Source: Clostridia bacterium (lineage in GTDB: Bacteria > Bacillota > Clostridia > Christensenellales > Aristaeellaceae). Taken from it: a stretch of 37,040 nucleotides of DNA. A program made the translations under genes and the position numbers. Positions 19,783 to 37,040 of the stretch are shown in pieces. The stretch covers positions 1 through 37,040 of the forward strand of contig JAFRTK010000011.1 in the NCBI GenBank assembly GCA_017427165.1, in the 5' to 3' direction. The notes beneath the pieces were generated by a model that had not been told where the DNA came from, searched no databases, and worked only from the letters and a program-made list of their open reading frames with translations. Every line of letters starts with the position of its first letter. Position 1 is the first letter of the stretch.

Positions 19783-19783
19783 C

Positions 19784-20857
19784 TCATGCCGCCTCCTTTC
19801 CGATGCTCGTTCTGCCGCTGTTGGAACGCATCCGCAGCCGGCGGAACGCGTCCTTAACCACCGGACTTCCGAGGATAACCAGCAGGATAATGACAATCGC
19901 CTTGTAAGCTTTCACGTCTGTCGAGGGAACCTTCATGGCATACAGTGTGATCGTCAGTGCCTGGATCGTATATGCGCCCAGTATGGATCCGGCCATGTTG
20001 AACTTCCCGCCGCCCAGGCTGTTACCGCCGATGGCAACTGCCAGGATTGCGTCCATTTCGATATTCAGCAGTAACGTCTCATGGTTGATCAGGCTCAGCC
20101 GGCTCACACCGATTACGCCTGAAACAGAACAGCATGCTCCCAGCAGGATAAAAGCAAGCAGCTTGATCTTAAGAGGATTGATGCCGTTCAGTTTGGCGGC
20201 TCCCTGATTGATACCCACTGACTGGATATACAGCCGCAGGGTCGTGGTCCGGAAAACAATTGACAGGATAATTCCAACCAGGATCACAATCAGGATCGGT
20301 GTCGGAACAGGAATTCCGGGAATAAAGCTGCCGATCGCTGTAATGATCGGACTGCCGACGGTAGGCGTCGCCCCGCCGTTAATCCAGTATGCGATAGACC
20401 GGCCGCATGTGAACAGGATAAGTGTGGCAATCATCGGCTGGATTTTGAAAACAGAAACCAGTGTGCCGTTAAAGCAGCCAAAAACCATCGCCACAAGGCA
20501 GCACAGCACAACACCCAGTGCAACAGTCCATCCGGTAATCGGTCCTGCCCGGAGCACCTTCACAAACACGCTGCCGGCAATTGCCGCCAGGCATCCCACC
20601 GAAATATCCTGGCCGCCGGAAGCTGCAGTGACCAGCGTCATGCCCATAGCAAGAATGGCGAGCTCGGATGCGCCGTTCAGGATACTGATCAGGTTGCCCT
20701 GAAGTACCGGATATCCGTCATTATTGGTGCCGATATTCACGGAAAAGAATGAAGAATCCCGTATCAGGTTGAAAATCAGCAGGAGTCCGATTGCCACCAG
20801 CGGAATCAACAGCTGGGAATTATTCTGAAAGAAACCGGTTTTCTTTCTCTCAGGCAT
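19784..20857 (-). CDS. Sugar ABC transporter permease (YtfT/RbsC type), first subunit
   Basis: 357 residues, about ten membrane helices after a short basic N-terminus (ERKKTGFFQNN). Family motifs are SGGQDISVGCLAAIAG, FKIQPMIATLILFTCGRS, GINQGAAKLNGI and VAIGGNSLGGGKFNMAGS. Pairs with the following permease to form a heterodimeric pore. Its ATG is 8 bases inside the 3' end of the ATPase gene, with GGAGG seven bases upstream. The C-terminus is basic and cytoplasmic. The substrate is probably a hexose or pentose, by analogy with the galactofuranose importer. Confidence 0.93.
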   Translation of the reverse strand: MPERKKTGFFQNNSQLLIPLVAIGLLLIFNLIRDSSFFSVNIGTNNDGYPVLQGNLISILNGASELAILAMGMTLVTAASGGQDISVGCLAAIAGSVFVKVLRAGPITGWTVALGVVLCCLVAMVFGCFNGTLVSVFKIQPMIATLILFTCGRSIAYWINGGATPTVGSPIITAIGSFIPGIPVPTPILIVILVGIILSIVFRTTTLRLYIQSVGINQGAAKLNGINPLKIKLLAFILLGACCSVSGVIGVSRLSLINHETLLLNIEMDAILAVAIGGNSLGGGKFNMAGSILGAYTIQALTITLYAMKVPSTDVKAYKAIVIILLVILGSPVVKDAFRRLRMRSNSGRTSIGKEAA

Positions 20858-22355: not shown

Positions 22356-22372
22356 TCGTTGCTCCCCTTTCG

Positions 22373-22424
22373 AAAAATGCGCGGTGCGGATCGCGGATTC
22401 CTCCACGGCTCCACACCGCGCGTT
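22373..22424 (-). terminator. Intercistronic attenuator hairpin between binding-protein and ATPase genes
   Basis: On the minus strand a stem of about 12 base pairs (GCGCGGTGTGGA with TCCGCACCGCGC, one U-G pair) across a loop of roughly 19 bases, followed by A and five T. Placement inside the operon fits partial termination or 3'-end protection, which would give more binding protein than membrane components. Confidence 0.75.
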
Positions 22425-22455
22425 CATACCTTAATCTTTACTGGTTTTCAGTCTG

Positions 22456-23418
22456 TTATTCGCCCAGGCCATAGGTGGCGATGTCATCCTCAGTGAGGGT
22501 GGTAGCATCAAATCCCTTTTCCTCGGAGATGATCTGGTTCTTTTCGTTCAGGCCTTCAATGGCTTCACCGGCTTCCAGCTTCTGGATCATGTCACTGATT
22601 ACCTGAGCCTGGAAGGGGCTGCACTGTCCATCATAGTTCCAGTTGCCGGCCAGCAGTTCCCGTAGGGCCCACTTGTTGCAGTCAAAGCCCATCACGATAA
22701 CGTCCTTGCCAACGCCATGGGAGATGCCCGCTTCATCCAGGGCAGCCACAGCACCCTTGGCCATACCGTCGTTTTCAGCATAGATGACGTTGAAGGGGGT
22801 CTTCGCGTTGATCACGGATTCAGTGATCTTCTTGGCTTCCGCTTCATCCCAGGTAGCGGTCTGCTGTACAACCTTGTTCATGGTGCCCGCTTCGAACTGA
22901 GCGTCCAGAGCTCCGGTACGTCCCAGCTGAGCATCACTGGCCATTGCGCCCTGGATGTGGATAACATTGTATTCATCCAGTTTCTGGTCCAGCAGCCACT
23001 GAACGGCCAGATCGCCTTCCTTGGACATGTCGGACACGACAGCCGCGGCATACAGGGAAGGATCACAGTCGATCATACGGTCAAACAGGAAAACAACGAT
23101 TCCGGCTTCCTTCGCATCGTTCAGGACCTTTTCCCAACCGGTGGTCTCAGCAGCGGAGATCAGCAGATAATCCACACCATCCGTGATGAACTGGGTCGCA
23201 GCGTTCAGCTGTTCGTCGTTCTTCAGGCTGTAGAAGGTCTTGGCTTCGTAACCATTCTCTGCGGAGAAGACTTTCTCGAAGTCTTTCACATTCGCTTCAC
23301 GATAGCCGGATTCAGACGGCGGGTTGTTCACAATGCCGACCTTGATGCCATCCGCAAGCGCGAGGGACACGGACAGGATCATCACAAGAGCGATAACCAG
23401 AGCCAACAGTTTCTTCAT
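22456..23418 (-). CDS. YtfQ-like periplasmic-binding-type sugar-binding protein of the ABC importer
   Basis: 320 residues from ATG 23418, with GGGAGG upstream. A Sec signal peptide (KKLLALVIALVMILSVSLALA) appears to be cut after Ala-Leu-Ala, and there is no lipobox Cys. The mature domain is a type-1 periplasmic-binding fold: VGIVNNPPSESGYREAN, TGWEKVLNDAKEAGIVVFLFDR, IQGAMASDAQLGRTGALDAQF and YAENDGMAKGAVAALDEAG. It resembles Escherichia coli YtfQ, a galactofuranose/galactose binder, and is a paralogue of the sensor lipoprotein at 26302-27279. First gene of the importer operon. How it stays at a Gram-positive surface without lipidation is unclear. Confidence 0.92.
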   Translation of the reverse strand: MKKLLALVIALVMILSVSLALADGIKVGIVNNPPSESGYREANVKDFEKVFSAENGYEAKTFYSLKNDEQLNAATQFITDGVDYLLISAAETTGWEKVLNDAKEAGIVVFLFDRMIDCDPSLYAAAVVSDMSKEGDLAVQWLLDQKLDEYNVIHIQGAMASDAQLGRTGALDAQFEAGTMNKVVQQTATWDEAEAKKITESVINAKTPFNVIYAENDGMAKGAVAALDEAGISHGVGKDVIVMGFDCNKWALRELLAGNWNYDGQCSPFQAQVISDMIQKLEAGEAIEGLNEKNQIISEEKGFDATTLTEDDIATYGLGE

Positions 23419-23471
23419 GATTCTTTCCTCCCAAAGATTATTCTTTTTTGGCATACCTGCCATTTACCTGA

Positions 23472-23499
23472 ATTATAAAAAAGAATCCCCTGCTTTTGA
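23472..23499 (-). promoter_or_regulatory. Probable promoter of the ABC importer, overlapping the upstream terminator
   Basis: On the minus strand TATAAT (23472-23477) lies 17 bases after TTCAAA (23495-23500 region). The -35 falls in the loop and the -10 in the U-tract of the terminator that ends the sensor operon. The leader of about 45 bases contains a small TGGCA/TGCCA hairpin. Confidence 0.5.
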
Positions 23500-23511
23500 A
23501 TGCAGAGGATT
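23477..23511 (-). terminator. Terminator of the sensor kinase/regulator operon
   Basis: AATCCCCTGC (23484-23493) pairs with GCAGAGGATT (23502-23511) with one wobble pair and an 8-base loop. On the minus strand C and six T follow. About 75 bases after the regulator stop. Confidence 0.85.
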
Positions 23512-23586
23512 TCGATTTTGGTTGAAATTTTTCCGTATTTGGCATGTTTCTCGTCCAAAAAAGGGAAGTATCTTTGGATTATTGGT

Positions 23587-24846
23587 TCATTTTTTTTGGT
23601 CGCGCCAGCTCTTCCGGTACTCGCTGGGCGTCATTCCGGTGTTCCGCTTGAACATATAGCTGAAGTAGTGCGCGTCGTTGTAACCGACCTCTTCCGCGAT
23701 CCGGAAGGACCGCAGCTCCGTGGTCTCCAGCAGCTCCTTTGCCCGCGAGATCCGCAGCCCGGTCAGGTACTGTGTGAACGTCATTCCCGTCTCCTGCGCG
23801 AAGATGGTGGACAGGTGGCTCTGGCTCAGGTGCACTGCCTCCGCCGCGTCGGAAAGCATCAGGTTCGGATCGGAGAAATGCTCCTCCAGGAACAGCCGCG
23901 CCTTCAGCACGGAACCTTCGCCGTATCCGCTTCCGCGTCCGCCGGGGCTCACAATGCTGCGCTTGGCCGGGCCCTCCGCCGTCTGCAGGTGGCGCAGGTG
24001 CCGCGCGCTGCGCATGCTCCTGCGGATATCATGGAAATCATCCACCGTATCCCCGATGGTGATCAGCAGGTTCTGTTCGTTTTCCAGCTCCGGCAGGTGC
24101 ATCGCGGAGTTGGCGTAGGAATACGCCCGTTCCTCCACGTCCTCCGGGTGGTCGCCCAGCACCAGCGCCCTGGCGCCCTTCGCGCCGGAGCACACAAACA
24201 CCGTGCCCCCGCTCATTTCCGCCAGGCTCGTCAGTGCACCGCGGCAGGCCGCCCGCGCCTCCCCCTCCGATGCAAAGGAGATGTCCAGCACCGCGTAGCA
24301 TCCGGCCATCAGGTTCACGCCCAGCCCGCGCATCTGGCTCACCACCGCGTCATCGTCCGCCGGATCGCCCTCGTCGGTGAACAGGCTTTCCAGCAGCTTG
24401 TCCCGCAGGAAGGCGTTCTCGTTCATCGTGCGGTTCTTCAGCGCGGTCAGGTTTTCCCGTTCCCGGCGCTTTTCCTCAATCTGGCTGCGGACCCGGTCCA
24501 GCACGTCCCCGAGTTCCTTTGCCGTCACCGGCTTCAGCAGGTATTCCCGCACGCCCAGGCTGATCGCCTTCCGGGCGTATTCAAAGTCGTCATATCCGGA
24601 CAGGATAATCCGCTCCACCCACGGCATCGTCCGCTGCACCTCTTCGCACAGCTTCATCCCGTCCATAAACGGCATCCGGATATCCGTCAGCAGGATATCC
24701 ACGTCCAGGTCGCGGATCATCGGCAGGGCCATTTCCCCGTCCGGTGCCTCGCCCACCAGCTGGAATCCCTTCTCCTCCCATGGAAAGGAATTCCGCAGGT
24801 TTTCCCGGATGGCTATTTCATCGTCTACCAGAAAGACCTTCATCAT
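23587..24846 (-). CDS. AraC-family response regulator (YesN type)
   Basis: 419 residues. The receiver domain (1-120) carries VDDE, phosphoacceptor Asp55 in LTDIRMP, and Lys in LLKPV. A middle region (about 130-310) with no sharp motif probably mediates dimerisation. The C-terminal AraC/XylS double helix-turn-helix (about 318-415) contains LSQSHLSTIFAQETGMTF and IAEEVGYNDAHYFSYMFKR, followed by GMTPSEYR. It should activate sugar genes after phosphorylation by the overlapping YesM-like kinase; the adjacent importer is the obvious target. ATG at 24846 with GGGAGG nine bases before it; it starts 29 bases inside the kinase gene, so the two are translationally coupled. Confidence 0.94.
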   Translation of the reverse strand: MMKVFLVDDEIAIRENLRNSFPWEEKGFQLVGEAPDGEMALPMIRDLDVDILLTDIRMPFMDGMKLCEEVQRTMPWVERIILSGYDDFEYARKAISLGVREYLLKPVTAKELGDVLDRVRSQIEEKRRERENLTALKNRTMNENAFLRDKLLESLFTDEGDPADDDAVVSQMRGLGVNLMAGCYAVLDISFASEGEARAACRGALTSLAEMSGGTVFVCSGAKGARALVLGDHPEDVEERAYSYANSAMHLPELENEQNLLITIGDTVDDFHDIRRSMRSARHLRHLQTAEGPAKRSIVSPGGRGSGYGEGSVLKARLFLEEHFSDPNLMLSDAAEAVHLSQSHLSTIFAQETGMTFTQYLTGLRISRAKELLETTELRSFRIAEEVGYNDAHYFSYMFKRNTGMTPSEYRKSWRDQKK

Positions 24847-26299
24847 GGTCGATTTCCTCCCTCGCCCGGATCGGAATCACAAAGGATACCTCCGTTCCCT
24901 CCGGACCCGATTTGAGGGTCAGCCCCTTCTTCTTTTCATAGTACAGCCGGATACGCATGTCCACGTTCCGCAGGCCGAATCCGGAATACCCCGGTTCCAG
25001 CGCCGCCTGCAGGCTCGGTTTCTCGGCGTCCAGCGCCCTCCGGATTTCCTTCAGCTGCTCCGGCGCCATTCCCTTGCCGGTATCCGCCACGGTAAAGCGC
25101 ATCAGCGCGCCCTCCGCCTGCATGCGTACGGTAATCCGCCCGCCGCCGCGCTTTTCCTTGATGCCGTGGTACAGTGCGTTCTCCACCAGCGGCTGCAGCA
25201 GCAGTTTCAGCATGTACACGTTCTCCATGCCTTCCGGGGAATCCACCTCGTAGGTCAGGATATCCCGGTACCGTGTCTGCTGGATGCTCAGGTAGGCGGA
25301 TACATGCTTCAGTTCCTGGCTCACCGGAATCCAGTCCGCGCCGGAGGACAGGGAGATGCGGAAGAAGTCACTCAGGTTCCGCGTCAGGCGCACCACCTCG
25401 TCGCCCTTCCCGCTTTCCGCCTGCCATACAATCGCGTCCAGCGTGTTGTACAGGAAGTGCGGGTTGATCTGCGCCTGCAGCGTCCGCAGCTCCGCCTTCG
25501 CCAGGTGCTCCTGGTTCCGCCGGGTTTCCGCGATCAGGGTCTCCAGCCGTTCCGCCATCTGGTTGATGTGCTCCGCCAGTTCCTGCAGTTCCTCCACGCC
25601 CAGGTCGCTCACCCGGTCGCGCAGGTCGCCCTCGGCGATCCGCCGCACCGTGGCCTCCAGGGAGGAAAGCGCTGTCCGGATATTGTCCGTCAGCCGGTTC
25701 ATGGCAAACCGGGTATAGAACAGCGCCAGGATCAGCAGCAGGAATTCCGCGCCGGCTGTGATCAGCACCACCCGGTTCAGGCGGGTGCTGGTCGCCCGGG
25801 CATTCAGGATCTCCTGCCCGATGAACGCGTCCACCATGTCCGCGACCTGCGCGCCGATTTTGCGGATTTCATCCACGATTTCGATGATTTCGTCAATCGG
25901 GATACCCTCCGCCATGCCGTCCCGGACCTTCAGGATATACTGCTCCAGCGTCTCCATTGTCCGCCGTGCCACTGTCAGCTGCAGGTGGCCGTTCCCGGAG
26001 GTTTCCGCCAGCAGCTCGTCCAGCGTCCCGTCCACCCGGGCAATCAGCTTTTCCGCGCCGCTGTCTGCAAATGAGGAACGTCCGGCCGCCACGGCAAACA
26101 TGTTCTCCGCCAGCGTGGTCTCCACCACCGGCTTCTGCTCCGCGGCCCGGTCCATCCGGCGGATCATCGCCTGGTACTGTTCCGAGTAGATGATCGTGGT
26201 AACCAGCCCGCCGATCACCGGCAGGATCAGCAGCAGCGCAATCGTGGTAACCGATATCCGCACCTGCCGGACAATGCTGGTCATTCTTTGCCGTGCCAT
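24818..26299 (-). CDS. YesM-type sensor histidine kinase
   Basis: 493 residues. Membrane helices lie at about 17-37 and 178-197 and enclose an extracytoplasmic helical domain of about 140 residues. A HAMP domain follows (about 198-252). The His_kinase domain has phosphoacceptor His281 in QINPHFLYNTLDAI, and the ATPase has LVENALYHG, DTGKGM and GFGLRNVDMRI. It phosphorylates the AraC-type regulator encoded downstream. Its external domain has no ligand-binding fold that I recognise, which fits sensing through the lipoprotein encoded two bases upstream. The start at 26299 has GGAGG 10 bases upstream, inside the lipoprotein gene. Confidence 0.94.
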   Translation of the reverse strand: MARQRMTSIVRQVRISVTTIALLLILPVIGGLVTTIIYSEQYQAMIRRMDRAAEQKPVVETTLAENMFAVAAGRSSFADSGAEKLIARVDGTLDELLAETSGNGHLQLTVARRTMETLEQYILKVRDGMAEGIPIDEIIEIVDEIRKIGAQVADMVDAFIGQEILNARATSTRLNRVVLITAGAEFLLLILALFYTRFAMNRLTDNIRTALSSLEATVRRIAEGDLRDRVSDLGVEELQELAEHINQMAERLETLIAETRRNQEHLAKAELRTLQAQINPHFLYNTLDAIVWQAESGKGDEVVRLTRNLSDFFRISLSSGADWIPVSQELKHVSAYLSIQQTRYRDILTYEVDSPEGMENVYMLKLLLQPLVENALYHGIKEKRGGGRITVRMQAEGALMRFTVADTGKGMAPEQLKEIRRALDAEKPSLQAALEPGYSGFGLRNVDMRIRLYYEKKKGLTLKSGPEGTEVSFVIPIRAREEIDHDEGLSGRR

Positions 26300-26301
26300 G
26301 C

Positions 26302-27279
26302 TCAGAAGCCCTCCACCCGGGGATCCGTCAGGTCATCCAGGTCGGAGAAGGCGCCCTCATCCGGATGGGTGACCCGCGGGATTTCCTTTCCCGCCTTCAG
26401 GTCCTGCACCAGCTTCATCACCTCGTCGCCCAGGTCCGGGGAGCACTGCACCACGCAGTTGATCCTCCCGGCCTTCAGCGCCTCCACCGCTTCCTTTTCG
26501 CCGTCCACCGTAATCAGGATGATATCCTTGGCCGGCCGGATCCCGTTCTTTTCCAGGATGTCCAGCACGCCCAGCGTCATGGAATCGTTGTGGGAATAGA
26601 TCACGTCGATTCCGTCTTTTCCGTATTTTTCCAGCAGGTACGTCATGCATTCCTCGCCTTTTGAGCGCAGGAAATCCCCGCTGATGCTGTCAATGATTTC
26701 AAACCGGCTGTCCTCCCGGATCGCGTCCTGGAATCCGCGCTGCCGGTCCCGCATCGGGGTGGAGTCCGGCGTCCCGCTGATCTCCGCGATCCGGACGTGG
26801 TCCATTTTCTCCGCGTCCGCCTTCCGGATCAGGTACTCCCCGGCCCGGCGGCCTTCCGCGTAAAAATCCGCACCGACAATCGCCGTATACAGCGAATCCG
26901 CGTTCTCCGATTCGATCATCCGGTCCACCAGGATCACAGGGATATTCGCCTGTTTCGCCTCGTTCAGCACATTGTCCCAGCCGGTTTCCACAATCGGGGA
27001 AAACACGATCACGTCCACCCGGTACGCAATAAAGGAGCGGATTGCGTCAATCTGCTTCTCCTGCTTCTGATTGGCGTTTTCCATCATCAGGCCGAATCCG
27101 TACTGCTTCGCCGCGGCTTCCACGCTCTTCGTGTTGGCCATCCGCCAGGAGCTTTCCGCTCCCAGCTGGGAAAACCCGACAACAATCGCACGGTTTTCCG
27201 GGTCCGCCGGTTTTCCCGCGCATCCGCCCAGCAGGCCCAGCAGGATGACTGCCAGTACCATTATCGCGATTTTCCGCAT
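26302..27279 (-). CDS. YtfQ-like sugar-binding lipoprotein, probable sensor component
   Basis: 325 residues from ATG 27279, with GGGGGAG upstream. A lipoprotein signal (RKIAIMVLAVILLGLLGGC) has its lipid-attachment Cys at residue 20. The mature protein is a type-1 periplasmic-binding fold very like YtfQ: VGFSQLGAESSWRMAN, QKQEKQIDAIRSFIAYRVD, TGWDNVLNEAKQANIPV, SGDFLRSKGEECM and YSHNDSMTLGVLDIL. It heads an operon with the YesM-like kinase and AraC regulator and has no permease genes of its own, so ligand presentation to the kinase is the likely role. Comparable three-component arrangements are known, such as XylFII-LytS with an AraC-type partner for xylose in clostridia. Ligand probably shared with the neighbouring importer. 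Confidence 0.9.
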   Translation of the reverse strand: MRKIAIMVLAVILLGLLGGCAGKPADPENRAIVVGFSQLGAESSWRMANTKSVEAAAKQYGFGLMMENANQKQEKQIDAIRSFIAYRVDVIVFSPIVETGWDNVLNEAKQANIPVILVDRMIESENADSLYTAIVGADFYAEGRRAGEYLIRKADAEKMDHVRIAEISGTPDSTPMRDRQRGFQDAIREDSRFEIIDSISGDFLRSKGEECMTYLLEKYGKDGIDVIYSHNDSMTLGVLDILEKNGIRPAKDIILITVDGEKEAVEALKAGRINCVVQCSPDLGDEVMKLVQDLKAGKEIPRVTHPDEGAFSDLDDLTDPRVEGF

Positions 27280-27317
27280 AAGCTCTCCCCCGGTTCGTTT
27301 TTTCTTCTGTCCTGCGC

Positions 27318-27357
27318 ATTTGTGTATCATTATAGATACAAATTCCGGTTCGCGCAA
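27318..27357 (-). promoter_or_regulatory. Promoter of the sensor operon with a palindrome over the -10
   Basis: On the minus strand TTGCGC (27352-27357), 17 bases, perfect TATAAT (27329-27334). The -10 is flanked by an inverted repeat: GTATC (27324-27328) and GATAC (27335-27339), extended to ATTTG/CAAAT-like arms with a two-base offset. A bound regulator here would interfere with or tune initiation. Confidence 0.75.
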
Positions 27358-27416: not shown

Positions 27417-27445
27417 AGGAAAAGGGAGCGGCGTATGCCGCTCCC
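27417..27445 (-). terminator. Terminator of the long carbohydrate operon
   Basis: Perfect 9-base stem GGGAGCGGC / GCCGCTCCC with a 4-base loop, followed on the minus strand by TTTTCCT. 22 bases after the binding-protein stop. The U run is short but the stem is strong. Confidence 0.72.
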
Positions 27446-27467
27446 CGGATTATCCATGGTTTCTTCC

Positions 27468-28835
27468 TCAGTTCGCGAAGATCTGGTCCAGCGTATCCTG
27501 GACCACCTGCTTGTATTCCTCCTGCAGCTGGGCAGGGGTGTAATCGCCGTTGATAAACTCACGCAGCGGCATGCTTTCCAGCACCGTTCCGGCAAAGTCC
27601 ACAACAGTGCGCTCGCCCATCTTCTTCATGATTTCGAAGTTCCACTCCTGCAGGTCCAGCTTGTCGGACGTGGTGGTGTACCACCACTCCAGTTCTTCCG
27701 GATCATCGCGCAGGGCAACGTCGTCATGGTACCAGTTCTGGTAAGCACGGAATACGTCATACACCAGCTTCGGATTCTCGATGCCGACCGGGATGATGTA
27801 GAAGCTGCCGGCCGCGATCTTGGTCGCATTCGTATCGGCGTTGCCGTGCGGTCCGATCGGGTAGTCCACAAACACCATGTCGAAGTCCAGCGTGGTTTCC
27901 GCTTTTCCGTCCCAGTTATAGTCGTCGTAGTTTGCCATGATCCAGGCCGCGGTGGTGGTGAAGGCCACCTTCTTGTCCCGGTACAGGTAACGGCAGACGT
28001 CCCAGCCGCTTTCTTCCGGCAGCGGATAGGCCGCCTTGTCGGTAAGCCACAGGTCCTGCAGGAACTTCAGGGTTTCGCCCATTTCCACGGAGGAGAGGTT
28101 CTCCTTCGGGGTGGAGGCCAGCGTGGTGCCGTTGGACATGTACCAGTAGGGCAGGCAGTCGGTGATCCACGCGCCGTAGCCGTAAACGTCCGTCACGCCG
28201 TCGCCGTCATTGTCCTTGGTCAGCGCGATGCAGTACTCCCGGAACTTGTCCCAGGTCCACTCGCCGCGCGCGGCCAGGTCCCGCGGATCCTCCAGGTTCG
28301 CTTCCTCGATCATCTGCAGGTTGAAGGCCAGCGGATAGGTTGCCGCCACCTGGTCCTCCGCGCCGTTGACCGTCAGCAGGCTCACTGCGCCGTTTTCCAG
28401 GTTCACGTAGTTCAGCACCGTATCCTCATGCTTCAGCAGCGGATCGTCCGGATCCAGCACGTCCCGCAGGTCCATGGCATAGCCGTTCATCACGGCGGGA
28501 ACGCCCCAGCCCAGTTCCACCATGTACACGTCGCAGTCCGGTTCACCGGCCAGGATGGAGTTGTTCACGGAGTCCTGAACGCCCGCGTAGGTCAGGTTCT
28601 GGAATTCGTAGGTGACCCCGTAGGTGTCCTCGATGGTCTTCACGTTGTCAAACCGCATCAGGTCGGTGTCCTTGCCGGTCGCCGCCTCATTGTCTTCCCA
28701 GGATTCATCGTTGGAGTCATAGTAAATGTCCCACCACAGGGCGATGGTGATATTCCGCGGATCTTCCGCCAGTGCCGTTGCGGCCAGGGAGAGGACCAGC
28801 GCCAGCGCCAGCAGTACAGCTGTCAGTTTTTTCAT
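27468..28835 (-). CDS. Family-1 extracellular carbohydrate-binding protein of a CUT1 importer
   Basis: 455 residues. A signal peptide (KKLTAVLLALALVLSLAATALA) ends in an Ala-x-Ala site, with no lipobox Cys. The mature protein has the family-1 pattern: an N-terminal lobe beginning NITIALWWD, SILAGEPDCDVYMVE, and GEWTWDKFREY. It also contains a calcium-loop-like DNDGDGVTD, a feature common in this family. Many surface Trp and Tyr residues (WWDIYYD, WYHDD, EWWYTTT) suit stacking against sugar rings. It lies last in an operon whose two permeases are of the maltose type. AAAGGAG lies 10 bases before the ATG. The ligand is probably an oligosaccharide; its identity cannot be told. Confidence 0.93.
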   Translation of the reverse strand: MKKLTAVLLALALVLSLAATALAEDPRNITIALWWDIYYDSNDESWEDNEAATGKDTDLMRFDNVKTIEDTYGVTYEFQNLTYAGVQDSVNNSILAGEPDCDVYMVELGWGVPAVMNGYAMDLRDVLDPDDPLLKHEDTVLNYVNLENGAVSLLTVNGAEDQVAATYPLAFNLQMIEEANLEDPRDLAARGEWTWDKFREYCIALTKDNDGDGVTDVYGYGAWITDCLPYWYMSNGTTLASTPKENLSSVEMGETLKFLQDLWLTDKAAYPLPEESGWDVCRYLYRDKKVAFTTTAAWIMANYDDYNWDGKAETTLDFDMVFVDYPIGPHGNADTNATKIAAGSFYIIPVGIENPKLVYDVFRAYQNWYHDDVALRDDPEELEWWYTTTSDKLDLQEWNFEIMKKMGERTVVDFAGTVLESMPLREFINGDYTPAQLQEEYKQVVQDTLDQIFAN

Positions 28836-28868
28836 ATGGATTGTTCTCCTTTCCTGTTCAGATGGTTT

Positions 28869-30578
28869 TTACTTGATCGCCTGGCCGACTGCCACGGAGT
28901 AAACCGTCCAGGCGGAAGCGCTTTCGCACTGCATCATGGCGCCCCAGGTGCTCTTGTCCTCGCCGCATACCGCCGCGATCTGCTCGTAGGTCACCTGCGC
29001 GATGGAGCCGTTCGCCACGTCAGTGCCGTCGTTGCCGACGCGCATCCAGCCGGCTGCCGCCCAGGGCATCACGAGCCACATGCTGCCGTCTTCGGATTCG
29101 TAGGAGATGGTCACCACGGAACCGGGTACCAGCGCGTCAATGATTTCCTGCGGCATTTCCAGGCCGTCCTGCGCCCATGCGCCGGCGGACTTGGCAAATC
29201 CCGGGAAGGAAACCAGGTTGGTCAGTCCGAAGAACTCAGCCTTCTGGCCGACGCGGACGCTGTAAACCTCCCACGCGGAGGAGCCTTCGCACTGCATCAT
29301 GGCACCCCAGGTGCCCTTGTCCTCGCCGCACAGCGCAGCGATTTCTTCATAGGTGATATAGGCCTTGCCGCCGATCTTGGTGGCTGTTCCCTGGGAAACA
29401 CGCATCCAGCCGGCTGCTGCCCACGGCATAACGAGCCAGATGTCGCCATCCTCAGAGGCGTAGGTGATCTCCACCACGGATCCGGGAACCAGCGCATCGA
29501 TGATTTCCTGCGGCATTTCCAGGCCGTCCTGCGCCCATGCGCCGGCGGACTTGGCAAATCCGGGGAATTCCACCGCGTTCTTCAGCACGATCTGGTTGGC
29601 CCGCTGGCCTACGCGCACCGCGAACACTTCCCAGTCGGAAGCCGCTTCGCACTGCATCATCGCACCCCAGGTGCTCTTGTCTTCGCCGCACAGGGCTTCG
29701 ATCATCTCATAGGGGATCTGGGCAATCGTCTTGCTGTTGTTGATCGCCGCGGTACCCTGGCCCACGCGCATCCAGCCGGCAGCCGCCCACGGCATGACGA
29801 TCCACATGGAGCCGTCCGCGCTCGCGAATTCCACTTCCACCACGGAACCGGGAACCAGCGCGTCAATGATTTCCTGCGGCATTTCCAGGCCGTCCTGCGC
29901 CCATGCGCCGGCGGACTTGTGGAAATCCGGGAATTCCACAGCATTGGTCAGCGCCACCAGGTTGCTCATGTCACGCTCGGAAGCTTCCGCCACGTACACC
30001 GCGGTGGTATCCAGCGCGATCGCGTTGCCGTCCTTGTCCAGCAGCTTGATGTTGTCCAGGTAGAAGGTCGCGGGTTCTCCGCCCGCCTGGTCTTCCCTGG
30101 AGATCATCACATAGTTGCCCGCTCCCGCGGTGAAGGCGGCCTTGAAGTCGATCTTCACATTGCGCGGGTTTTTCTTTTCCATGTACACGGACCAGTTGGC
30201 CTTGTTTTCATCCGCAGCCTCACCGGTGTAGCTGTACACCACGCCGGACACCGCGTAGAACTTGCCGTCCGCGGCCTTGTCCACGCCGATGTCAAAGGAG
30301 ATGGCGGCCACGTCTGCCAGCTTGTCGCCGGCCAGGCCTTCGATGTTCAGGGCAACGTAGGGAATCCCCTGCGCTGCGACCTTCAGCGCCTTGGAGCCGT
30401 TGTATTCAACGATCTCCAGCGCGGTTGCGGTGTCCGCGTTCGGCTTGGCGGCGCCAACACCGAGGAAAGCGAAATTGCCGTCCTCGAAGTCGAGCGCGTC
30501 AGCCGTCTCGGCGGACGCCCAGGAGCACATACCGATTGCCAACACGGCAACCAGCAACCAGGAAATGATTTTCTTCAC
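28869..30578 (-). CDS. Secreted protein with CBM-like domain and three near-identical repeats
   Basis: 569 residues from GTG 30578, chosen because AAGGAGG lies 8 bases upstream and a signal peptide follows at once (KKIISWLLVAVLAIGMCSWASA, cut after ASA). Residues about 28-185 (ALDFEDGNFAFLGV to FYLDNIKLLDKDGN) look like a β-sandwich carbohydrate-binding module. Three tandem repeats follow at about 208-326, 330-446 and 450-566, each starting near KSAGAWAQDGLEMPQEIIDA and ending near VRVGQ. They are Trp-rich and have one Cys pair each (297/310, 417/430, 538/551). There are no catalytic motifs. I do not recognise the repeat family. Set between permease and binding-protein genes, it probably holds glycan near the importer. 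It could instead be a structural surface protein. Confidence 0.8.
   Translation of the reverse strand: MKKIISWLLVAVLAIGMCSWASAETADALDFEDGNFAFLGVGAAKPNADTATALEIVEYNGSKALKVAAQGIPYVALNIEGLAGDKLADVAAISFDIGVDKAADGKFYAVSGVVYSYTGEAADENKANWSVYMEKKNPRNVKIDFKAAFTAGAGNYVMISREDQAGGEPATFYLDNIKLLDKDGNAIALDTTAVYVAEASERDMSNLVALTNAVEFPDFHKSAGAWAQDGLEMPQEIIDALVPGSVVEVEFASADGSMWIVMPWAAAGWMRVGQGTAAINNSKTIAQIPYEMIEALCGEDKSTWGAMMQCEAASDWEVFAVRVGQRANQIVLKNAVEFPGFAKSAGAWAQDGLEMPQEIIDALVPGSVVEITYASEDGDIWLVMPWAAAGWMRVSQGTATKIGGKAYITYEEIAALCGEDKGTWGAMMQCEGSSAWEVYSVRVGQKAEFFGLTNLVSFPGFAKSAGAWAQDGLEMPQEIIDALVPGSVVTISYESEDGSMWLVMPWAAAGWMRVGNDGTDVANGSIAQVTYEQIAAVCGEDKSTWGAMMQCESASAWTVYSVAVGQAIK
28881..29957 (-). repeat. 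Three tandem coding repeats of 360-366 bases
   Basis: Units 29601-29957, 29241-29591 and 28881-29231. A 53-base block is identical in all three (29867-29919, 29501-29553, 29141-29193), including every synonymous position. Spacing is 366 and 360 bases, an exact codon multiple. This indicates recent duplication or gene conversion. Confidence 0.9.
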
Positions 30579-30601
30579 GGGATTTTCCTCCTTTAATATT
30601 T

Positions 30602-30624
30602 TTACCCGATCCCGGGTTGGGTAA
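30602..30624. repeat. Inverted repeat between permease and repeat-protein genes
   Basis: TTACCC and GGGTAA around a CCCGGG centre, in the 61-base gap just before the ribosome binding site. Could be an mRNA processing or stabilising hairpin, or an internal operator. No U run, so not a terminator. Confidence 0.35.
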
Positions 30625-30639
30625 CAGATGAATGGGGGC

Positions 30640-31638
30640 TCAGCCCACAATGCCGGACCGCTCCACGCCCTCGATAAACCGCCGCTGCAGCAGCAGGTAG
30701 ATCACCACCACCGGCACCAGCACCAGCACAACGCCGGCATCAAAATACAGCTGCTGTTCCCGGATGGTCTGGATCTTTTCGGCGTTCGCGATCACGTTGA
30801 TCAGCGATTCCAGCTTCCGGGTCACCAGGATGGAGTCGCTGATGTTGAAGGTGTTGGCGAAGAATGAGTCGTTGTACTGCCATACGATGGAGAACACCGC
30901 CACGGTGATCACCGCGGGCGCCGCGTTCGGCATCATGATCGTGAAGTACGTCCGTCCCGTCCCGGCGCCGTCCACCAACGCCGCTTCCTCAATTTCCTTC
31001 GGCAGCCCGCGGAAAAACTGGTTGAAGATGTAGATGTACAGCCCGGACCGCAGCCCGCACCCGAACAGGGACATCAGCACGGTCGGCCAGGGCGTCTGCA
31101 GCAGGTTGATCCCCTTGCCGCCGTTGAACAGGCTCACAATCCCCAGCGGGTCAAAGAAGCGGAACGTCGTGTACAGCGGAAACTGGATGGTGTTCAGCGG
31201 AATCACGATCGTCACCAGCACAAAGGCAAACAGGATACTCTTCAGCGGGAACTTATACCGGGCAAACCCGTATCCGGCCATGGAACAAACCAGCAGCTGG
31301 ATCAGCGTTACCCCGAATACATACAGCAGCGTGCTGCCCAGCACCGGCAGATAATCCAGGTACTTGATCGCCATCGTGTACCGTTCCAGCGTCGGGCTGA
31401 TCGGAATCGTGAATACCATCGGGTTAATGGAGTCCTGCCGGGAGAAGAAGGAATTCGCGATTATATTGATCACCGGCGCCAGGATCACGTAGCTGATCCC
31501 GGCAATCACGATCAGCCGGAACAGGCCGATCGCGAAGTTCTTCAGGCCGGTCAGCGTTTTGTCCCGCCGGTTGGCGTAGGCCGGGGAACTCCGGAATTCC
31601 CGCCAGGTCAGCTTGTTGCTCGCCGTGTTTGCGGTCAT
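30640..31638 (-). CDS. CUT1 carbohydrate ABC permease, MalG type
   Basis: 332 residues. A polar N-terminal tail of about 40 residues precedes six expected membrane helices; the first is about 43-65. The ATPase-docking EAA loop is EEAALVDGAGTGRTYFTIMMP-like with the invariant Gly, and the C-terminus RRFIEGVERSGIVG matches the MalG ending. It forms the channel with the permease encoded 16 bases upstream. Length is about 40 residues above the family norm because of the N-terminal tail. No ATPase gene lies in the visible operon, so a shared MsmX-type ATPase encoded elsewhere is expected. Confidence 0.94.
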   Translation of the reverse strand: MTANTASNKLTWREFRSSPAYANRRDKTLTGLKNFAIGLFRLIVIAGISYVILAPVINIIANSFFSRQDSINPMVFTIPISPTLERYTMAIKYLDYLPVLGSTLLYVFGVTLIQLLVCSMAGYGFARYKFPLKSILFAFVLVTIVIPLNTIQFPLYTTFRFFDPLGIVSLFNGGKGINLLQTPWPTVLMSLFGCGLRSGLYIYIFNQFFRGLPKEIEEAALVDGAGTGRTYFTIMMPNAAPAVITVAVFSIVWQYNDSFFANTFNISDSILVTRKLESLINVIANAEKIQTIREQQLYFDAGVVLVLVPVVVIYLLLQRRFIEGVERSGIVG

Positions 31639-31654
31639 CTTGTCCTTCCTCCCC

Positions 31655-32581
31655 TCAGTTGTAGTAGAAAGCCCGCTTGTTCAGCAGGTATACGATCAGT
31701 CCCAGGATCAGGATGGTCACCAGCGTGGAGACCACGGAGAACGCTGAGGACAGGCCGTAGTTGTACAGTTCCTTGTAGGTCCGGGTCGCCAGCCCGATCA
31801 CCTCGCTGGAGGTAAACCGGTCCACCACCGTGTAGATCGTGTTGGTAATGATGTGCGGCATCACCATCGGGAACGTCACCTTCCAGAAGGTTTCATACCC
31901 CGTGGCGCCTTCAATCCGGGCCACTTCGTACAGCGAACCGGGGATCGACTGCAGCGCCGCGATAAACAGGATGATCTGCACGCCGGAACCCTTGATGATC
32001 GTGGAAATCCGGTTCACCGTATCCACGATGTATCCCAGGATGGAATCCGGAATTGCCAGTTCCCCGAACAGCTCCATGTAGTACGCCACGGAGACGCCGC
32101 CCGCGGAAGCCGCCTCCAGGCTCGCGCCGGAAACGCCGGCGTTCACCAGCTCCGTTGCCCGGGTGATCGCGTTGCCGACCGCGTCCGCGCTCAGGATAAT
32201 CGGCAGGAAGAAGATCGCCCGGACCACCGCCCGCCCTTTGAACTTCCGGTTCAGCATCATTGCCACAAACAGGCTGAAGAAGATGATCATCGGCAGGTCG
32301 ATCATCATGTCGATCAGTGAGGACGTCAGCGTCTGCTTGAAGGTCGCGTGGCTTGTAAACGCCTCAATGTAGTTGCTGAAGCCGACGTATTCCTTCGTCA
32401 TGCCCGTTGCGGCATCCAGCCCGATCTTCGACAGGCTGAATTCGCCCAGCTGCACCAGGCATCCGGCGTAAAACACCAGGAAGCCGATCAGCCACGGGAG
32501 GATAAACCGGTATCCGCGCGCGGCATTCCGCTGCTCATAGGAAAGGTGGAAAATGCTCCTTTTCCTGCGAATGGCCGTCAT
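31655..32581 (-). CDS. CUT1 carbohydrate ABC permease, MalF type
   Basis: 308 residues with six membrane helices. It starts with a basic tail and RGYRFILPWLIGFLVFY, typical of LplB/UgpA-type subunits. The EAA loop is YEVARIEGATGYETFWKVTF. A predicted external loop between helices 3 and 4 (about 140-190) is longer than usual and Ala/Gly-rich (SGASLEAASAGGVSVAY). The ATG at 32581 overlaps the stop of the DUF5696 gene by 4 bases, tying the importer to that gene. Partner of the MalG-type subunit that follows. Confidence 0.94.
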   Translation of the reverse strand: MTAIRRKRSIFHLSYEQRNAARGYRFILPWLIGFLVFYAGCLVQLGEFSLSKIGLDAATGMTKEYVGFSNYIEAFTSHATFKQTLTSSLIDMMIDLPMIIFFSLFVAMMLNRKFKGRAVVRAIFFLPIILSADAVGNAITRATELVNAGVSGASLEAASAGGVSVAYYMELFGELAIPDSILGYIVDTVNRISTIIKGSGVQIILFIAALQSIPGSLYEVARIEGATGYETFWKVTFPMVMPHIITNTIYTVVDRFTSSEVIGLATRTYKELYNYGLSSAFSVVSTLVTILILGLIVYLLNKRAFYYN

Positions 32582-35169
32582 TCGTCCTCACCTCCCGCCG
32601 CCAGGTAATTCATTGCCGGGATCCGGTACCCGTCCGCCTCCGCGTCGCTCTCCCCGCTGTTCACATACAGCACGGTCCCGTTGGAGTAGGCCACCCGGGC
32701 CAGCGTATCGGTGATCCGTTCGTGCCGGATCATCTCCGCCCCGCTCACGCGGCGCAGCGCTTCGTTCACAAAACGGTAGCTCTCCGCGGCTTCATCCTTC
32801 CATGCGGAGAAGGTCGTCGCGTAGTTGTTGTTCAGCCCGGTATACTTCATGTCCGCCGAGCTGTTCCACGTGAATGTGTAATGTACCGACGCGCCGTATT
32901 CCACCAGGTGGAGCAGTGCTGCCCTTTTGTCCCCGCTCTGCGCCAGGTTCAGCGCGGATCCGCAGTAGTCGATTGCCCCGTGGGTGATCATCTCCCACAG
33001 CGGGATCTGCTCATCCACAATTGCGAACATCGTCGCTTCCACCGGTGCGTTGATCACATGGCGGACGTAGGGGAAGCTGTAGTCATTCCCGCCGCTCACC
33101 ATCAGCTCGCGGTTTTCGCCGCCGATCGTCCCGAAGGCCGCTTTCACCAGGTCCAGGTCCGCCTCCCGGCTGATCACATTCGTCCGGCGCTTGTCCGCGT
33201 GCACCTCGTTTCCGAGATCCCGCAGGCTCAGTGCGTCCAGTCCCAGCCGGTCCGCGGCGGCCGCCAGCCGCTCCGCGTACCGCGGCAGGAACCGGGGAGA
33301 CAGCAGCATATAGCCGCGTTCGGTAAAGCCCATTGTCGCGGTCCGCCGCAGCGTAACCGGTCCGATCACGCCCAGCTCGGCCACATAGCCCTTGGCATAG
33401 TAGCGGCTGGCTTCCTCGCTGCGGAAAAAGCCTTTGGCAATTTCCGTCACCAGCTGGACCGCCGCATCCGGATATACCTTCCCGCCGGCGGCCTCCGCCG
33501 CATCGCGCAGGCGCTTCAGGCCGGCTTCCCCGCCCAGCTCGTTCAGCACGGAGATGTGGTTTACCGGGTCGTGGTAATATCCGCCGTTCATCCATCCCTG
33601 CAGGTTTACCCGCGGGTTGGAAATCTGTCCGTCCGCCAGCTCCGCCAGCATTTCCTCCGCCCGTTCAAAGGCAGTCATCGGCATCACCCGCAGGTACTGG
33701 ATGCCCATCCAGTGGGCGGTTTCCTTCACGCCGCCGATGATGTCGCAGTAGAAGGGAACATCCCCTTCCGCCTCTGCCTTCATGGCCAGCGATCCGTCCG
33801 CAAGCAGTTTCTCCCGCACGGCCTTGGCCAGGCCGTTGTATCCGGTGTACTCTCTGTCCAGGATCCGGTAGGTCACCGCGCAGTCCACCGGGTAGGCGTC
33901 TGCCTCCGCAACCACCGCGTCCTCCCCGGCCACCACCAGCGTGTCCGTCCGCCTCAGCCGGAAGGTGAAATAGGCATAGTTGTAGCTGTTGTTCCGGCCG
34001 GCCACGTCCGCTGTCACGGTGGCCAGGGTCGCGCCCCGGTCACAGGTGGCCAGCACGCTGTAATCCTTCCGGCAGATCCCGTACAGTGCCAGCCGGGCGG
34101 TCTGGATGTTCTGGGTTGCCGTGAAGTCGCTGTCAATCAGGTCCAGGTCGTAGATGCTCTGGTTGTACTGGGGCGCGGTCGTCTTTCCGTTGTTGAAGTG
34201 GATCAGGGCGCCGCTTCCGTCCGGTACCACCAGGTCGCCTTCTTCATCGGCCCCTGCCGCTCCCAGGAACGGCAGCAGCTGGATGGTGCGCACCTTGCCG
34301 CCGCCGGTTTCCGAGATGCCTTCATAGGGAATGGTGACCCGCAGGCCGTCCGCCGTCAGCGTGTAGTCCAGTGTGATTACAAAGGACAGGCTTTCCGCCG
34401 CTTCCTCGTCATCCGCCTCCGCCAGTGCTTCCATTTCCTCATAGTCTTCAATGGTGAATCCGGCTTTCCGGGCGTCCGCGTCAATCTGCTGCCGGTGCCG
34501 TGCCGTAACACCCTGGGACTTCAGCACATACAGGCCGCTCTCCTCATCAGGCACGTAGGATTTGGCCGCCTGCTTCTTGCCTGCCTGCGACAGGATTTCG
34601 TACCATTCCGCCGTCATCTGCCGCGGCACCAGCATCAGTTTTTCATTCGAAAGCGTGTATACCGCCCGGAATCCGTTCTCAATCCGCTGGTACTCAATCT
34701 GTCCGTTCTCAACTGCCTTCGCGTAGGAGCTCCACGGGGTGCCTTCACGGGAGTTCGTGTCCAGGTAGTTCAGGATAAACTGGCTCTTCAGGTTACCCTG
34801 ATTCAGCCCGGATTTGGCCACCGGGTCGCTGGCCGCGTCCTGCGGATTGGAGTAGATCACCCGGCCGGTTTCCTTGTCATACAGCGCGATCCCGGCGGTC
34901 TTCTCCTCCAGGTACAGTCCCAGCCGGTCGTTTTCCGCCGCCAGGCTGAATCCCGGCACACGGTTTTCCGGGTCCCGGGCCGTTTTCAGTTCCGTCCCCT
35001 CTTCCAGCGCCGCGGGCGCGGTGATATAGGCTTTGTACGCGTCATATCCGCGGTAGTTCACCAGGTACCATCCCAGGAACACCGCCGCGGCAATGACTGC
35101 CAGGGCTGCGAGAATCCACAGCGTCCGCCGCACGGCGGTCGGGAGGGGCAGCTTATTCGGGTTTTTCAT
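32578..35169 (-). CDS. Large membrane-anchored DUF5696-family protein
   Basis: 863 residues from ATG 35169, with GAGGAGGGA upstream. One membrane helix (about 14-36) follows a short basic tail, so the remainder is extracytoplasmic. Residues about 60-330 are β-rich and resemble a substrate-binding or β-sandwich region (LYDKETGRVIYSNP, VPDGSGALIHF). The C-terminal half (about 480-840) looks like an α/β barrel by its alternating pattern and motifs such as LGLDALSLRDLGNEVHADK, VSGGNDYSFPYVRHVI and DEQIPLWEMITHG. I recognise this as the DUF5696 group, which has no established function. A glycoside-hydrolase-like barrel is my guess, with acidic residues in these motifs as candidates for catalysis. 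It is coupled by overlap to the sugar permease genes. Confidence 0.78.
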   Translation of the reverse strand: MKNPNKLPLPTAVRRTLWILAALAVIAAAVFLGWYLVNYRGYDAYKAYITAPAALEEGTELKTARDPENRVPGFSLAAENDRLGLYLEEKTAGIALYDKETGRVIYSNPQDAASDPVAKSGLNQGNLKSQFILNYLDTNSREGTPWSSYAKAVENGQIEYQRIENGFRAVYTLSNEKLMLVPRQMTAEWYEILSQAGKKQAAKSYVPDEESGLYVLKSQGVTARHRQQIDADARKAGFTIEDYEEMEALAEADDEEAAESLSFVITLDYTLTADGLRVTIPYEGISETGGGKVRTIQLLPFLGAAGADEEGDLVVPDGSGALIHFNNGKTTAPQYNQSIYDLDLIDSDFTATQNIQTARLALYGICRKDYSVLATCDRGATLATVTADVAGRNNSYNYAYFTFRLRRTDTLVVAGEDAVVAEADAYPVDCAVTYRILDREYTGYNGLAKAVREKLLADGSLAMKAEAEGDVPFYCDIIGGVKETAHWMGIQYLRVMPMTAFERAEEMLAELADGQISNPRVNLQGWMNGGYYHDPVNHISVLNELGGEAGLKRLRDAAEAAGGKVYPDAAVQLVTEIAKGFFRSEEASRYYAKGYVAELGVIGPVTLRRTATMGFTERGYMLLSPRFLPRYAERLAAAADRLGLDALSLRDLGNEVHADKRRTNVISREADLDLVKAAFGTIGGENRELMVSGGNDYSFPYVRHVINAPVEATMFAIVDEQIPLWEMITHGAIDYCGSALNLAQSGDKRAALLHLVEYGASVHYTFTWNSSADMKYTGLNNNYATTFSAWKDEAAESYRFVNEALRRVSGAEMIRHERITDTLARVAYSNGTVLYVNSGESDAEADGYRIPAMNYLAAGGEDE

Positions 35170-35183
35170 CTTGCTTTCCCTCC

Positions 35184-35807
35184 TCATACGCGGAACACCA
35201 GTTCCATATAGATCCCGCGGAAGAATGAGTACACCTGGGTGATAAAGTTGAACACCAGCAGCATCAGGAAGATAATGATCAGCATGGCCACCACCGTCAG
35301 GAACAGGGTCACCAGCGTCTTCCCGAAGGTGTAATTGTGGATCTGCATGATGCCAATCAGCAGCATCACCGCCGTATAGGCGGTTCCGAGCCCCATCAGG
35401 ATGGTGTAGAAGGCCTCTTCGTTTTCCGCCACCAGGTGGGAAACCGCCGTGGCCGCCACCGTGGTCACCAGCATCGGGAAAAGGGCGTAGCCCGTTGCGG
35501 TCAGGATGTCCCGGAACCGGCCTTCCCCTTCCATCAGGCATGTCACCGACCAGTTGCCCACGCACAGGATAAAGTACAGGGCGATCACACCCGCCAGCTC
35601 CGCCGGCAGGTTCACGGTCCGCGGCTCAATGTCGTTCACGATAAAGCTCGCGCTGATCCGGTTCATGGAGAACGCGATGCCGTACAGGATCACCATCAGG
35701 AATGCGATCCCCAGGCTGCCCTTCTCCTGGTGCCGGATCCAGTAGTATCCGTCCGCGGGATGGCTCACCGTGTAGAAGAAATGCTGCCATTTTCCGCTCC
35801 GCTTCAT
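35184..35807 (-). CDS. Yip1-family integral membrane protein
   Basis: 207 residues with five predicted membrane segments after a soluble N-terminus that contains the HPADGYYWIRHQEKGSL motif common in bacterial Yip1 proteins. FGNW-like CVGNWSVTCLMEGEGRFRDI lies between helices 2 and 3, and the C-terminal helix ends near the last residue. Bacterial Yip1 proteins have no settled role; the eukaryotic members act in vesicle membranes. The ATG overlaps the upstream NHL-protein stop by 4 bases, and the DUF5696 gene follows after 14 bases. This trio ahead of sugar permeases recurs, to my knowledge, in other Bacillota, which argues for a joint function at the membrane. Confidence 0.82.
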   Translation of the reverse strand: MKRSGKWQHFFYTVSHPADGYYWIRHQEKGSLGIAFLMVILYGIAFSMNRISASFIVNDIEPRTVNLPAELAGVIALYFILCVGNWSVTCLMEGEGRFRDILTATGYALFPMLVTTVAATAVSHLVAENEEAFYTILMGLGTAYTAVMLLIGIMQIHNYTFGKTLVTLFLTVVAMLIIIFLMLLVFNFITQVYSFFRGIYMELVFRV

Positions 35808-37039
35808 GCCGCATTCCTCCTTTTTCCCCGCTTCCGGATCCGGGGAAGGACCGCCTTCACGCTGATCACGCCCAGCGCGACCGCTGCGATGATTCCGCTC
35901 AGGATCCAGCTGATGTTGTTCCGCAGCCGCTCATTCCGCCAGCGTTTGAAGGCCACCGAGTAATACTCCCGGTTCATGCCGCGCCGCAGGTAAAGCATGG
36001 CGTTCTCGTTATCCCCGGCCGACAGGTACGCCTTGCCGATGCCGGTGTTCGCCAGCTCGTTGATCTCGTCCAGCCGCAGCACCTCCTGCCACAGCGGAAC
36101 CGCCAGGCTCTCGTCCCCGTCATACCGCAGGCTCACCGCCTGGTTGATCAGGGATCCGTACTCCGTCTCGGCGAAGATGGTCAGGTTCCCCTGCTGGGAA
36201 TCCAGCACCAGCAGCCGGTTCCCCAGCTGTTCGATCGCCGCCGGGGTCTGGAAGGTTCCCGCCTGGGAACCGATGCCGCCGAAGATGTACAGCAGGTTGC
36301 CCTCGTGGTCATAGGTAAAAATCCGGCCCCGCCGGGCGTCCAGCAGGGAATAGATCCCATGCTTCCGGTACACCACGTCCACGATCTGGCTCGGTCCGGC
36401 GTAATTGCCGATGTTTCCGTATACGCGGTCGCCGCCCAGGTTCTGCGTCGGGCCCTTGCGGATCACGTCCTGCCCCTTTGGGTTCAGCCGGCGTACCGCC
36501 TGTTTGCCGTCCGTGTCCTTGTTCGAAGCGTATACGAATCCCTCGTCGTCCACATCGATTCCCGTAAACTCGGTCGGGATAAACAGCTGCTGCTTGGACC
36601 GTTCTTCCTTGGTCGCCAGCTTCCGCCAGAATTTCTCCCACATGGAGATCTTCACGCTGATCGTGCCGAAGAACCCGGTAAACGCCCCTTCTTCGCTGAA
36701 CACCATGATGCCCTGGAACATGTTCTGGGCGATCACATACACGCGGTCCGCGTAGTCTACCGATACCCGCAGCGGGGTAAACACATATCCCTCGTCCAGC
36801 ACCTCGCTCTGCGGGTTCTGCACGTATTTCACAAAGGTTCCGTCCGCCTCCAGCACTACGATCCGGCGGTTCTGGCTGTCAGCGATATACAGCCGGTGCT
36901 TTTCCGATACGGCCACACCGGAAGGCGCGCTGAAAGTCTGCGCCGTGCCGTCCGCCTCAAAGCCGCTGATGATGCCTTTTACCGTCTTCAGATCGCCGGC
37001 CAGCTTCACAATCCGGTTGTTGCCGGTATCGGCGATGTA
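35804..37039 (-). CDS. NHL-repeat β-propeller protein with TPR segment and C-terminal membrane anchor (5' end missing)
   Basis: The frame stays open to the window edge and reads YIADTGNNRIVKL there, a complete NHL motif, so the true start lies outside. The visible 411 residues hold further NHL blades: HRLYIADSQNRRIVVLEAD, then VYVIAQNMFQGIMVFS, FVYASNKDTDGKQAVRRL and RLLVLDSQQGNLTIFA. A TPR-like helical pair (about residues 300-360; LWQEVLRLDEINELANTGIGK) follows. One membrane helix near the end (ILSGIIAAVALGVISVKAVL) and a basic tail (RIRKRGKRRN) complete it. So the propeller is outside, anchored by its C-terminus. A scaffold or glycan-binding role in the operon is inferred. A GTG at 37009 is only an internal codon. 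Confidence 0.87.
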   Translation of the reverse strand, partial: YIADTGNNRIVKLAGDLKTVKGIISGFEADGTAQTFSAPSGVAVSEKHRLYIADSQNRRIVVLEADGTFVKYVQNPQSEVLDEGYVFTPLRVSVDYADRVYVIAQNMFQGIMVFSEEGAFTGFFGTISVKISMWEKFWRKLATKEERSKQQLFIPTEFTGIDVDDEGFVYASNKDTDGKQAVRRLNPKGQDVIRKGPTQNLGGDRVYGNIGNYAGPSQIVDVVYRKHGIYSLLDARRGRIFTYDHEGNLLYIFGGIGSQAGTFQTPAAIEQLGNRLLVLDSQQGNLTIFAETEYGSLINQAVSLRYDGDESLAVPLWQEVLRLDEINELANTGIGKAYLSAGDNENAMLYLRRGMNREYYSVAFKRWRNERLRNNISWILSGIIAAVALGVISVKAVLPRIRKRGKRRNAA

Positions 37040-37040
37040 G

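Follow-up and report, generated by a model that had tools for sequence, protein, structure and literature searches.

Seven closely spaced genes at one end of a 37,040-nucleotide stretch of DNA from a Clostridia bacterium (family Aristaeellaceae; contig JAFRTK010000011.1 of assembly GCA_017427165.1; hereafter the window) raise the question of what an NHL/TPR propeller protein, a Yip1-domain membrane protein and a large anchored DUF5696 protein do beside a sugar importer. A first-pass annotation had proposed an undescribed surface glycan system, in which a membrane-bound complex captures and processes a polysaccharide and hands oligosaccharides to the importer. Our analysis suggests that the genes belong to a widespread yet little-studied set of bacterial surface and membrane genes, whose most likely role is to bind plant hemicellulose, trim it and deliver the fragments to two sugar importers, and we consider it probable that they represent a Gram-positive β-mannan or glucomannan utilisation operon built on a conserved membrane module. 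The functional idea of the first-pass annotation is well supported, and the single complex that it envisaged is plausible.

The conservation of a core, defined as the NHL and Yip1 genes upstream and the permease genes A and B downstream of the DUF5696 gene, was traced in three sets of loci. The first comprises the 80 best named loci, among them Paenibacillus, Cohnella, Bacillus, Thermobacillus and Clostridia of rumen and gut; the second, 55 loci found in 398 genomes sampled evenly across the Bacillota (one of them the window's genome; at most three hits were scored per genome); and the third, 20 chosen loci, 19 of them from the window's genus. The core is complete in 78/80, 50/55 and 20/20 of these loci, respectively, and in 76/76, 48/49 and 19/19 of those with enough flanking sequence; a stricter overlap rule gave 74/80, 45/55 and 20/20. 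Among the five phylum-sample loci scored without the full core, four have short flanks (L192, L194, L219, L225), and in L224, the sole exception with enough flank, both missing genes are visible on inspection of the stretch. The gene order NHL-Yip1-DUF5696-permA-permB spans 16 families in the phylum sample. The linkage of DUF5696 to sugar permeases, whose absence would have told against the first-pass annotation, does recur. In the reciprocal direction, a profile built from the cassette NHL family (A6) and run on the 398 genomes found strong NHL together with strong DUF5696 in 37 genomes; DUF5696 occurred alone in none, and NHL without DUF5696 in one genome (G377), as a fragment (Fisher p = 2e-51, which overstates the certainty because relatives are not independent). 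Core completeness and this co-occurrence led us to reject chance linkage of the core genes. DUF5696 exceeds the cut-off in 39 genomes, of which the two extra ones, G436 and G459, have weak hits and no cassette in the fetched stretch. Weak DUF5696 hits were left uncounted, most of them at 17–26 bits (e.g., G436, G141 and G043) and two at 48–55 bits in G052; those in G052, G094 and G459 are GH129-like proteins.

Of the operon, the window, which is the whole of one contig (C26), contains just the downstream half. Another contig of the genome (C146) ends in 141 bases that match exactly those with which the window's reverse complement begins, and C146 carries in the same direction a GH26 gene truncated at the contig start, a 996-residue protein (X), a second permease pair (permA' and permB') and the N-terminus of the NHL protein. 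Pfam SBP_bac_1 identifies X as a giant solute-binding protein (SBP), and the second permease pair was found with profiles built for this analysis. The evidence for adjacency is strong but not proof, because k-mer assemblers can produce an overlap of 141 bases where their graph branches. The order GH26-X-permA'-permB'-NHL-Yip1-DUF5696-permA-permB-CBM65-SBP is found on a single contig in six loci of the same genus (L122, L123, L126, L128, L130 and L137), and X occurs in the fetched stretches of 74/80, 36/55 and 19/20 loci of the three sets. X is predicted to consist of two β-sandwiches, a helical stalk and the SBP domain; in the fold comparison of X, SBPs took up the matches listed, which bear little on residues 1–568. 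At one locus from a metagenome bin (L041:1119-5564), a CBM35-GH26 mannanase is joined in frame with X into a protein of 1482 residues, a lone fusion that is weaker evidence than the recurrent NHL-Yip1 fusion described below. Separately, in a cassette that is complete in all other respects, permB' is interrupted by a reverse-strand open reading frame (ORF) that may be a transposase (L206:4687-6012).

The barrel that had been suspected in the large anchored protein is borne out by the predicted fold. The DUF5696 protein comprises an N-terminal anchor followed by the GH129-like trio of β-sandwich, TIM barrel and C-terminal β domain, and comparison with known folds, called for beforehand, placed it with carbohydrate enzymes, whereby a fold unrelated to sugar proteins was rejected. 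Sequence identity to NagBb (5WZN) and ZgGH129/DagB (5OPQ, 8RZK) is 13–17%, and, unlike these enzymes, the DUF5696 protein is membrane-anchored. Asp651 aligns with the NagBb nucleophile Asp435 and is Asp in 61 of 72 sequences, whereas the acid/base residue Glu478 of NagBb is not conserved and aligns with Ser692. We call the protein GH129-like rather than GH129 because the acid/base Glu is absent; DUF5696 is a Pfam family separate from Glyco_hydro_129 (PF11308), whose model matched nothing in the window's genome at an E-value threshold of 0.001, and true GH129 membership was not upheld. A phmmer search of the single DUF5696 sequence against the PDB gave no credible match. We also observed a short DUF5696 form of about 725–740 residues without the nucleophile motif at three loci (L120, L132 and L133), whose cassettes are otherwise complete and have NHL and Yip1 fused.

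Hydropathy analysis predicts a single N-terminal helix with two arginines ahead of it in the DUF5696 protein, one C-terminal helix (residues 376–394) followed by a basic tail in the NHL fragment, and five helices in the Yip1 protein; a lipobox-like motif lies near the N-terminus of 33 of 100 DUF5696 relatives. Membrane orientation can be assigned by the positive-inside rule, and since the single helices are flanked by basic residues, the bulk domains of NHL and DUF5696 should be extracellular, in agreement with the proposed outward-facing propeller and Yip1 membrane protein. Pfam matches NHL at 6e-14 in a relative (L039), together with weak TPR; the TPR matches (0.05 in the window fragment, 2e-5 in the relative L056) are below the Pfam cut-off. 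NHL and Yip1 form a single ORF in 44 of 160 loci (6/80, 3/20 and 35/60), and this frequent fusion is the best sequence evidence for joint action of the two proteins. In the window's genome, all three Yip1 matches adjoin its three DUF5696 genes.

As for the substrate, the repeats of the secreted binder turned out to be three CBM65_1 domains, the only CBM65 matches in the genome, and the candidate of an unknown repeat was dropped. The N-terminal part of this protein has no Pfam match over the cut-off, and phmmer found no credible PDB match for it. The GH26 gene upstream, the three CBM65 domains and the GH130 genes beside related operons (L039 by Pfam; L036 and L041 by sequence and a GH130 profile) point to β-mannan or glucomannan; the window's genome also has GH130 genes elsewhere. 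Characterised CBM65s favour xyloglucan and β-glucan, with weak glucomannan binding reported once in the accessible texts (PMC10992016, PMC4954948). Other copies of the cassette adjoin GH10 or GH43 genes (xylan), and a few adjoin pectin enzymes and others; the core is therefore constant while the enzymes vary. The Pfam scan of neighbours took in 96 of 163 ORFs, after removal of near-duplicates by hand, and covers the best 25 of 68 families. The CBM65 repeats, the upstream GH26 gene, the GH130, GH10 and GH43 neighbours and the published xylan induction of an operon of matching order (see below) strengthen the glycan reading.

The seven genes of the window are listed below. They lie on one strand with gaps, from NHL/TPR to SBP in the direction of transcription, of −4, 14, −4, 16, 61 and 33 bp, and their positions, content and tight spacing agree with the first-pass annotation.

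Genes of the operon in the window, in the order of transcription
Feature	Position	Strand	Evidence
NHL/TPR propeller protein, 3' part (C-terminal 411 aa)	35804 to 37040, cut by contig end	−	Pfam NHL 1e-7
Yip1-domain membrane protein	35184-35807	−	Pfam Yip1 3e-15
Anchored DUF5696 protein, 863 aa	32578-35169	−	Pfam DUF5696 1.5e-182
CUT1 permease A	31655-32581	−	BPD_transp_1 2e-10
CUT1 permease B	30640-31638	−	BPD_transp_1 8e-13
Secreted 3xCBM65 protein	28869-30578	−	CBM65_1 2.4e-70, three stretches; signal peptide
Extracellular SBP	27468-28835	−	SBP_bac_1 5e-10; signal peptide

A BPD_transp_1 permease pair and an SBP_bac_1 protein constitute a CUT1 importer, and it is ATPase-less as had been noted, no ATPase gene being among the seven. 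Six OB_MalK matches occur in the genome; the one inspected (L238) is a MalK-type ATPase, and the 13 kb fetched around it contain no permease match. The CBM65 gene starts at a GTG preceded by AGGAGG. The small SBP, likewise in L036 and L039, has a signal peptide and no obvious lipobox, and a neighbouring SBP at 26302-27357 does have one. Several consecutive SBP genes lie downstream of another cassette (L103:10525-18090), as would be expected if many binding proteins shared a single permease pair. An open frame of 1053 residues (27435-30596, plus strand) runs antisense to the genes for the CBM65 protein and the SBP and most likely arises as a side effect of coding sequence with 60% GC. Directly downstream on the operon's strand, positions 18661-27357 encode a lipobox-bearing Peripla_BP_4 protein, a His_kinase-type sensor, an AraC-type response regulator and a CUT2 importer (SBP, double ATPase and two BPD_transp_2 permeases), which may serve sensing or import of monosaccharides linked to the operon.

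From the observed gene content, order and conservation together with the predicted folds, we infer a scheme for the substrate, its trimming, the ATPase partnership and the complex. The secreted GH26 would cut mannan, and the 3xCBM65 protein would keep the chains near the cell. The anchored GH129-like DUF5696 protein would bind the released oligosaccharides on the outer face, where it would probably remove α-linked decorations. The giant and the small SBP would then feed oligosaccharides to two separate CUT1 permease pairs, both presumably powered by a shared MsmX/MsmK-type ATPase, while the outward NHL-TPR propeller and Yip1 might form a membrane platform holding the parts together.

Among known systems, the SusC/SusD systems of Bacteroidota combine surface capture, outer processing and handover to import, with variable enzymes around a constant module. 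The present module would share that logic but differs in its uptake via ABC permeases; Pfam found no SusC/SusD domains in 28 window proteins scanned. Gram-positive polysaccharide utilisation loci are defined by a degradative enzyme, a transporter and a regulator in one locus, and here GH26 (via C146) and transporters lie in the operon, with a sensor kinase and an AraC-type regulator 1–3 kb downstream. The mannan loci of Roseburia, which belong to this class, have GH26 outside, an SBP with permeases, and GH130 inside. Our module shares this plan (model in PMC13278490, whose main text contains none of the words NHL, YIP1 and DUF) but differs in having a second permease pair and the giant SBP.

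The closest likeness is an operon of Caldicellulosiruptor (Anaerocellum) bescii, xloEFG-X-GH129-axoFGE-xynF-xynE-xynD-xyn10A-xynX-xynB (Athe_0174-0185), which is raised on xylan according to the main text of Rodionov et al. (2021; PMC8579813). XloEFG and AxoFGE are there described as two CUT1 transporters, and deletion of the shared ATPase gene msmK hampered growth on xylan, pectin and cellulose (PMC8579813). The described order, SBP-perm-perm, one unnamed gene, a GH129-annotated gene, perm-perm-SBP and xylanases with the shared ATPase MsmK, matches ours, and by order it is the same cassette, with its "X" (not our protein X) at the NHL-Yip1 place and GH129 at the DUF5696 place; the likeness is drawn from gene order and description, GH129 being named once in the main text. 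It differs in its enzymes, which are xylanases, and in that a single fused gene would encode both NHL and Yip1. As a guess, the GH129 reported, in the accessible text, among Paenibacillus exoproteins detected only on crystalline cellulose (PMC4867992) could also be a DUF5696 protein. Literature searches, with subscription papers mostly outside their reach, found no paper naming DUF5696 and nothing on this system under YIP1, NHL, xylan and transporters; we found no Caldicellulosiruptor paper mentioning Yip1 and nothing relevant pairing CBM65 with an ABC transporter. The claim of an undescribed system therefore stands in part: an operon of matching order has been published (PMC8579813), and what is new is the combination of a constant NHL-Yip1-DUF5696 module, two permease pairs and the giant SBP, which was not found described as such in the literature searched.

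Several observations weigh against the mannan operon and its conserved module. Since the core also adjoins enzymes for xylan and pectin, the assignment to mannan comes from the neighbours only; any of the five modelled GH families appears in the fetched stretch of just 17/55 phylum loci, and no GH130 lies directly downstream of the window's operon. The one PDB match of the small SBP is an arabino-oligosaccharide-binding protein (6RJY, 2e-6). Yip1 domains are widespread (7/14 control genomes). The module is patchy: 31/37 genomes of the genus, many of them incomplete, have DUF5696, and the other six and most of 24 further genera in the order lack it.

An ordinary Gram-positive locus, in which two independent CUT1 importers and a GH129-like debranching enzyme share an operon by chance and NHL and Yip1 are accessory (membrane insertion, housekeeping) without any complex, is a serious contender at somewhat less than even chances. 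Each permease pair does have its own SBP (X upstream, the small SBP downstream), X and its permeases lie downstream of the core in some loci (e.g., L198, L208, L211 and L220), and in the account of Rodionov et al. the C. bescii operon figures as two transporters plus GH129 (PMC8579813). However, the core order persists through 16 families while the enzymes change, NHL and DUF5696 are never apart except for one NHL fragment, and in 44 loci NHL is fused to Yip1. With a similar standing, just short of an even bet, DUF5696 could be a barrel derived from GH129 that has no catalytic role and instead binds glycan at the membrane and directs it to the permeases, leaving the trimming to other enzymes. 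The NagBb acid/base position is Glu in 12/72 and Asp in 9/72 (21/72 in total), Asn695 nearby is present in 69/72, and position 651 is not Asp in 11/72 (Glu in two), including proteins of intact cassettes (e.g., L120, L133 and L103); one protein also serves mannan-, xylan- and pectin-type loci. DUF5696 activity may therefore be absent or dispensable, although the nucleophile is widely retained and ZgGH129, which shares only the Asp with NagBb, is nevertheless active in the published account (PMC5698469).

That NHL-Yip1 is a sensor reporting extracellular glycan, outside the uptake machine, appears improbable: the outside propeller, membrane helices and short basic cytoplasmic tail would suit it, but Pfam scans of NHL and Yip1 show no cytoplasmic signalling domain, and response-regulator-like genes stand near many loci, with a kinase/regulator pair downstream in the window. 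We regard an operon that builds or exports surface glycan as very improbable. In its favour is a likeness of the NHL part to the NCBIfam ScyF model, at a score (63.8 bits) far short of that model's cut-off of 350 bits. Against it, the GH26, GH10, GH43 and GH130 neighbours are degradative, CUT1 permeases and SBPs are importers, and an operon of matching order is induced by xylan in the published account (PMC8579813). Going beyond the favoured hemicellulose operon, we tentatively propose, while rating it unlikely, that a single membrane supercomplex unites NHL-TPR, Yip1, DUF5696, the giant SBP and both permease pairs as the monoderm equivalent of SusCD; its propeller/Yip1 platform would cluster the permeases round a GH129-derived, glycan-handling barrel, and swaps of the secreted endo-enzyme and SBP would retarget it from mannan to xylan to pectin.

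The module is present in about one in eleven Bacillota genomes of the even sample (37/398), and the set of named loci includes Paenibacillus and Clostridia of rumen and gut. Should the part that stays constant be a common machine for handling hemicellulose, this would account for the way in which monoderm fibre degraders hold large oligosaccharides at the membrane. It would also give a function to DUF5696 and the prokaryotic NHL-Yip1 pair, and provide a genomic marker with which polysaccharide use could be predicted.
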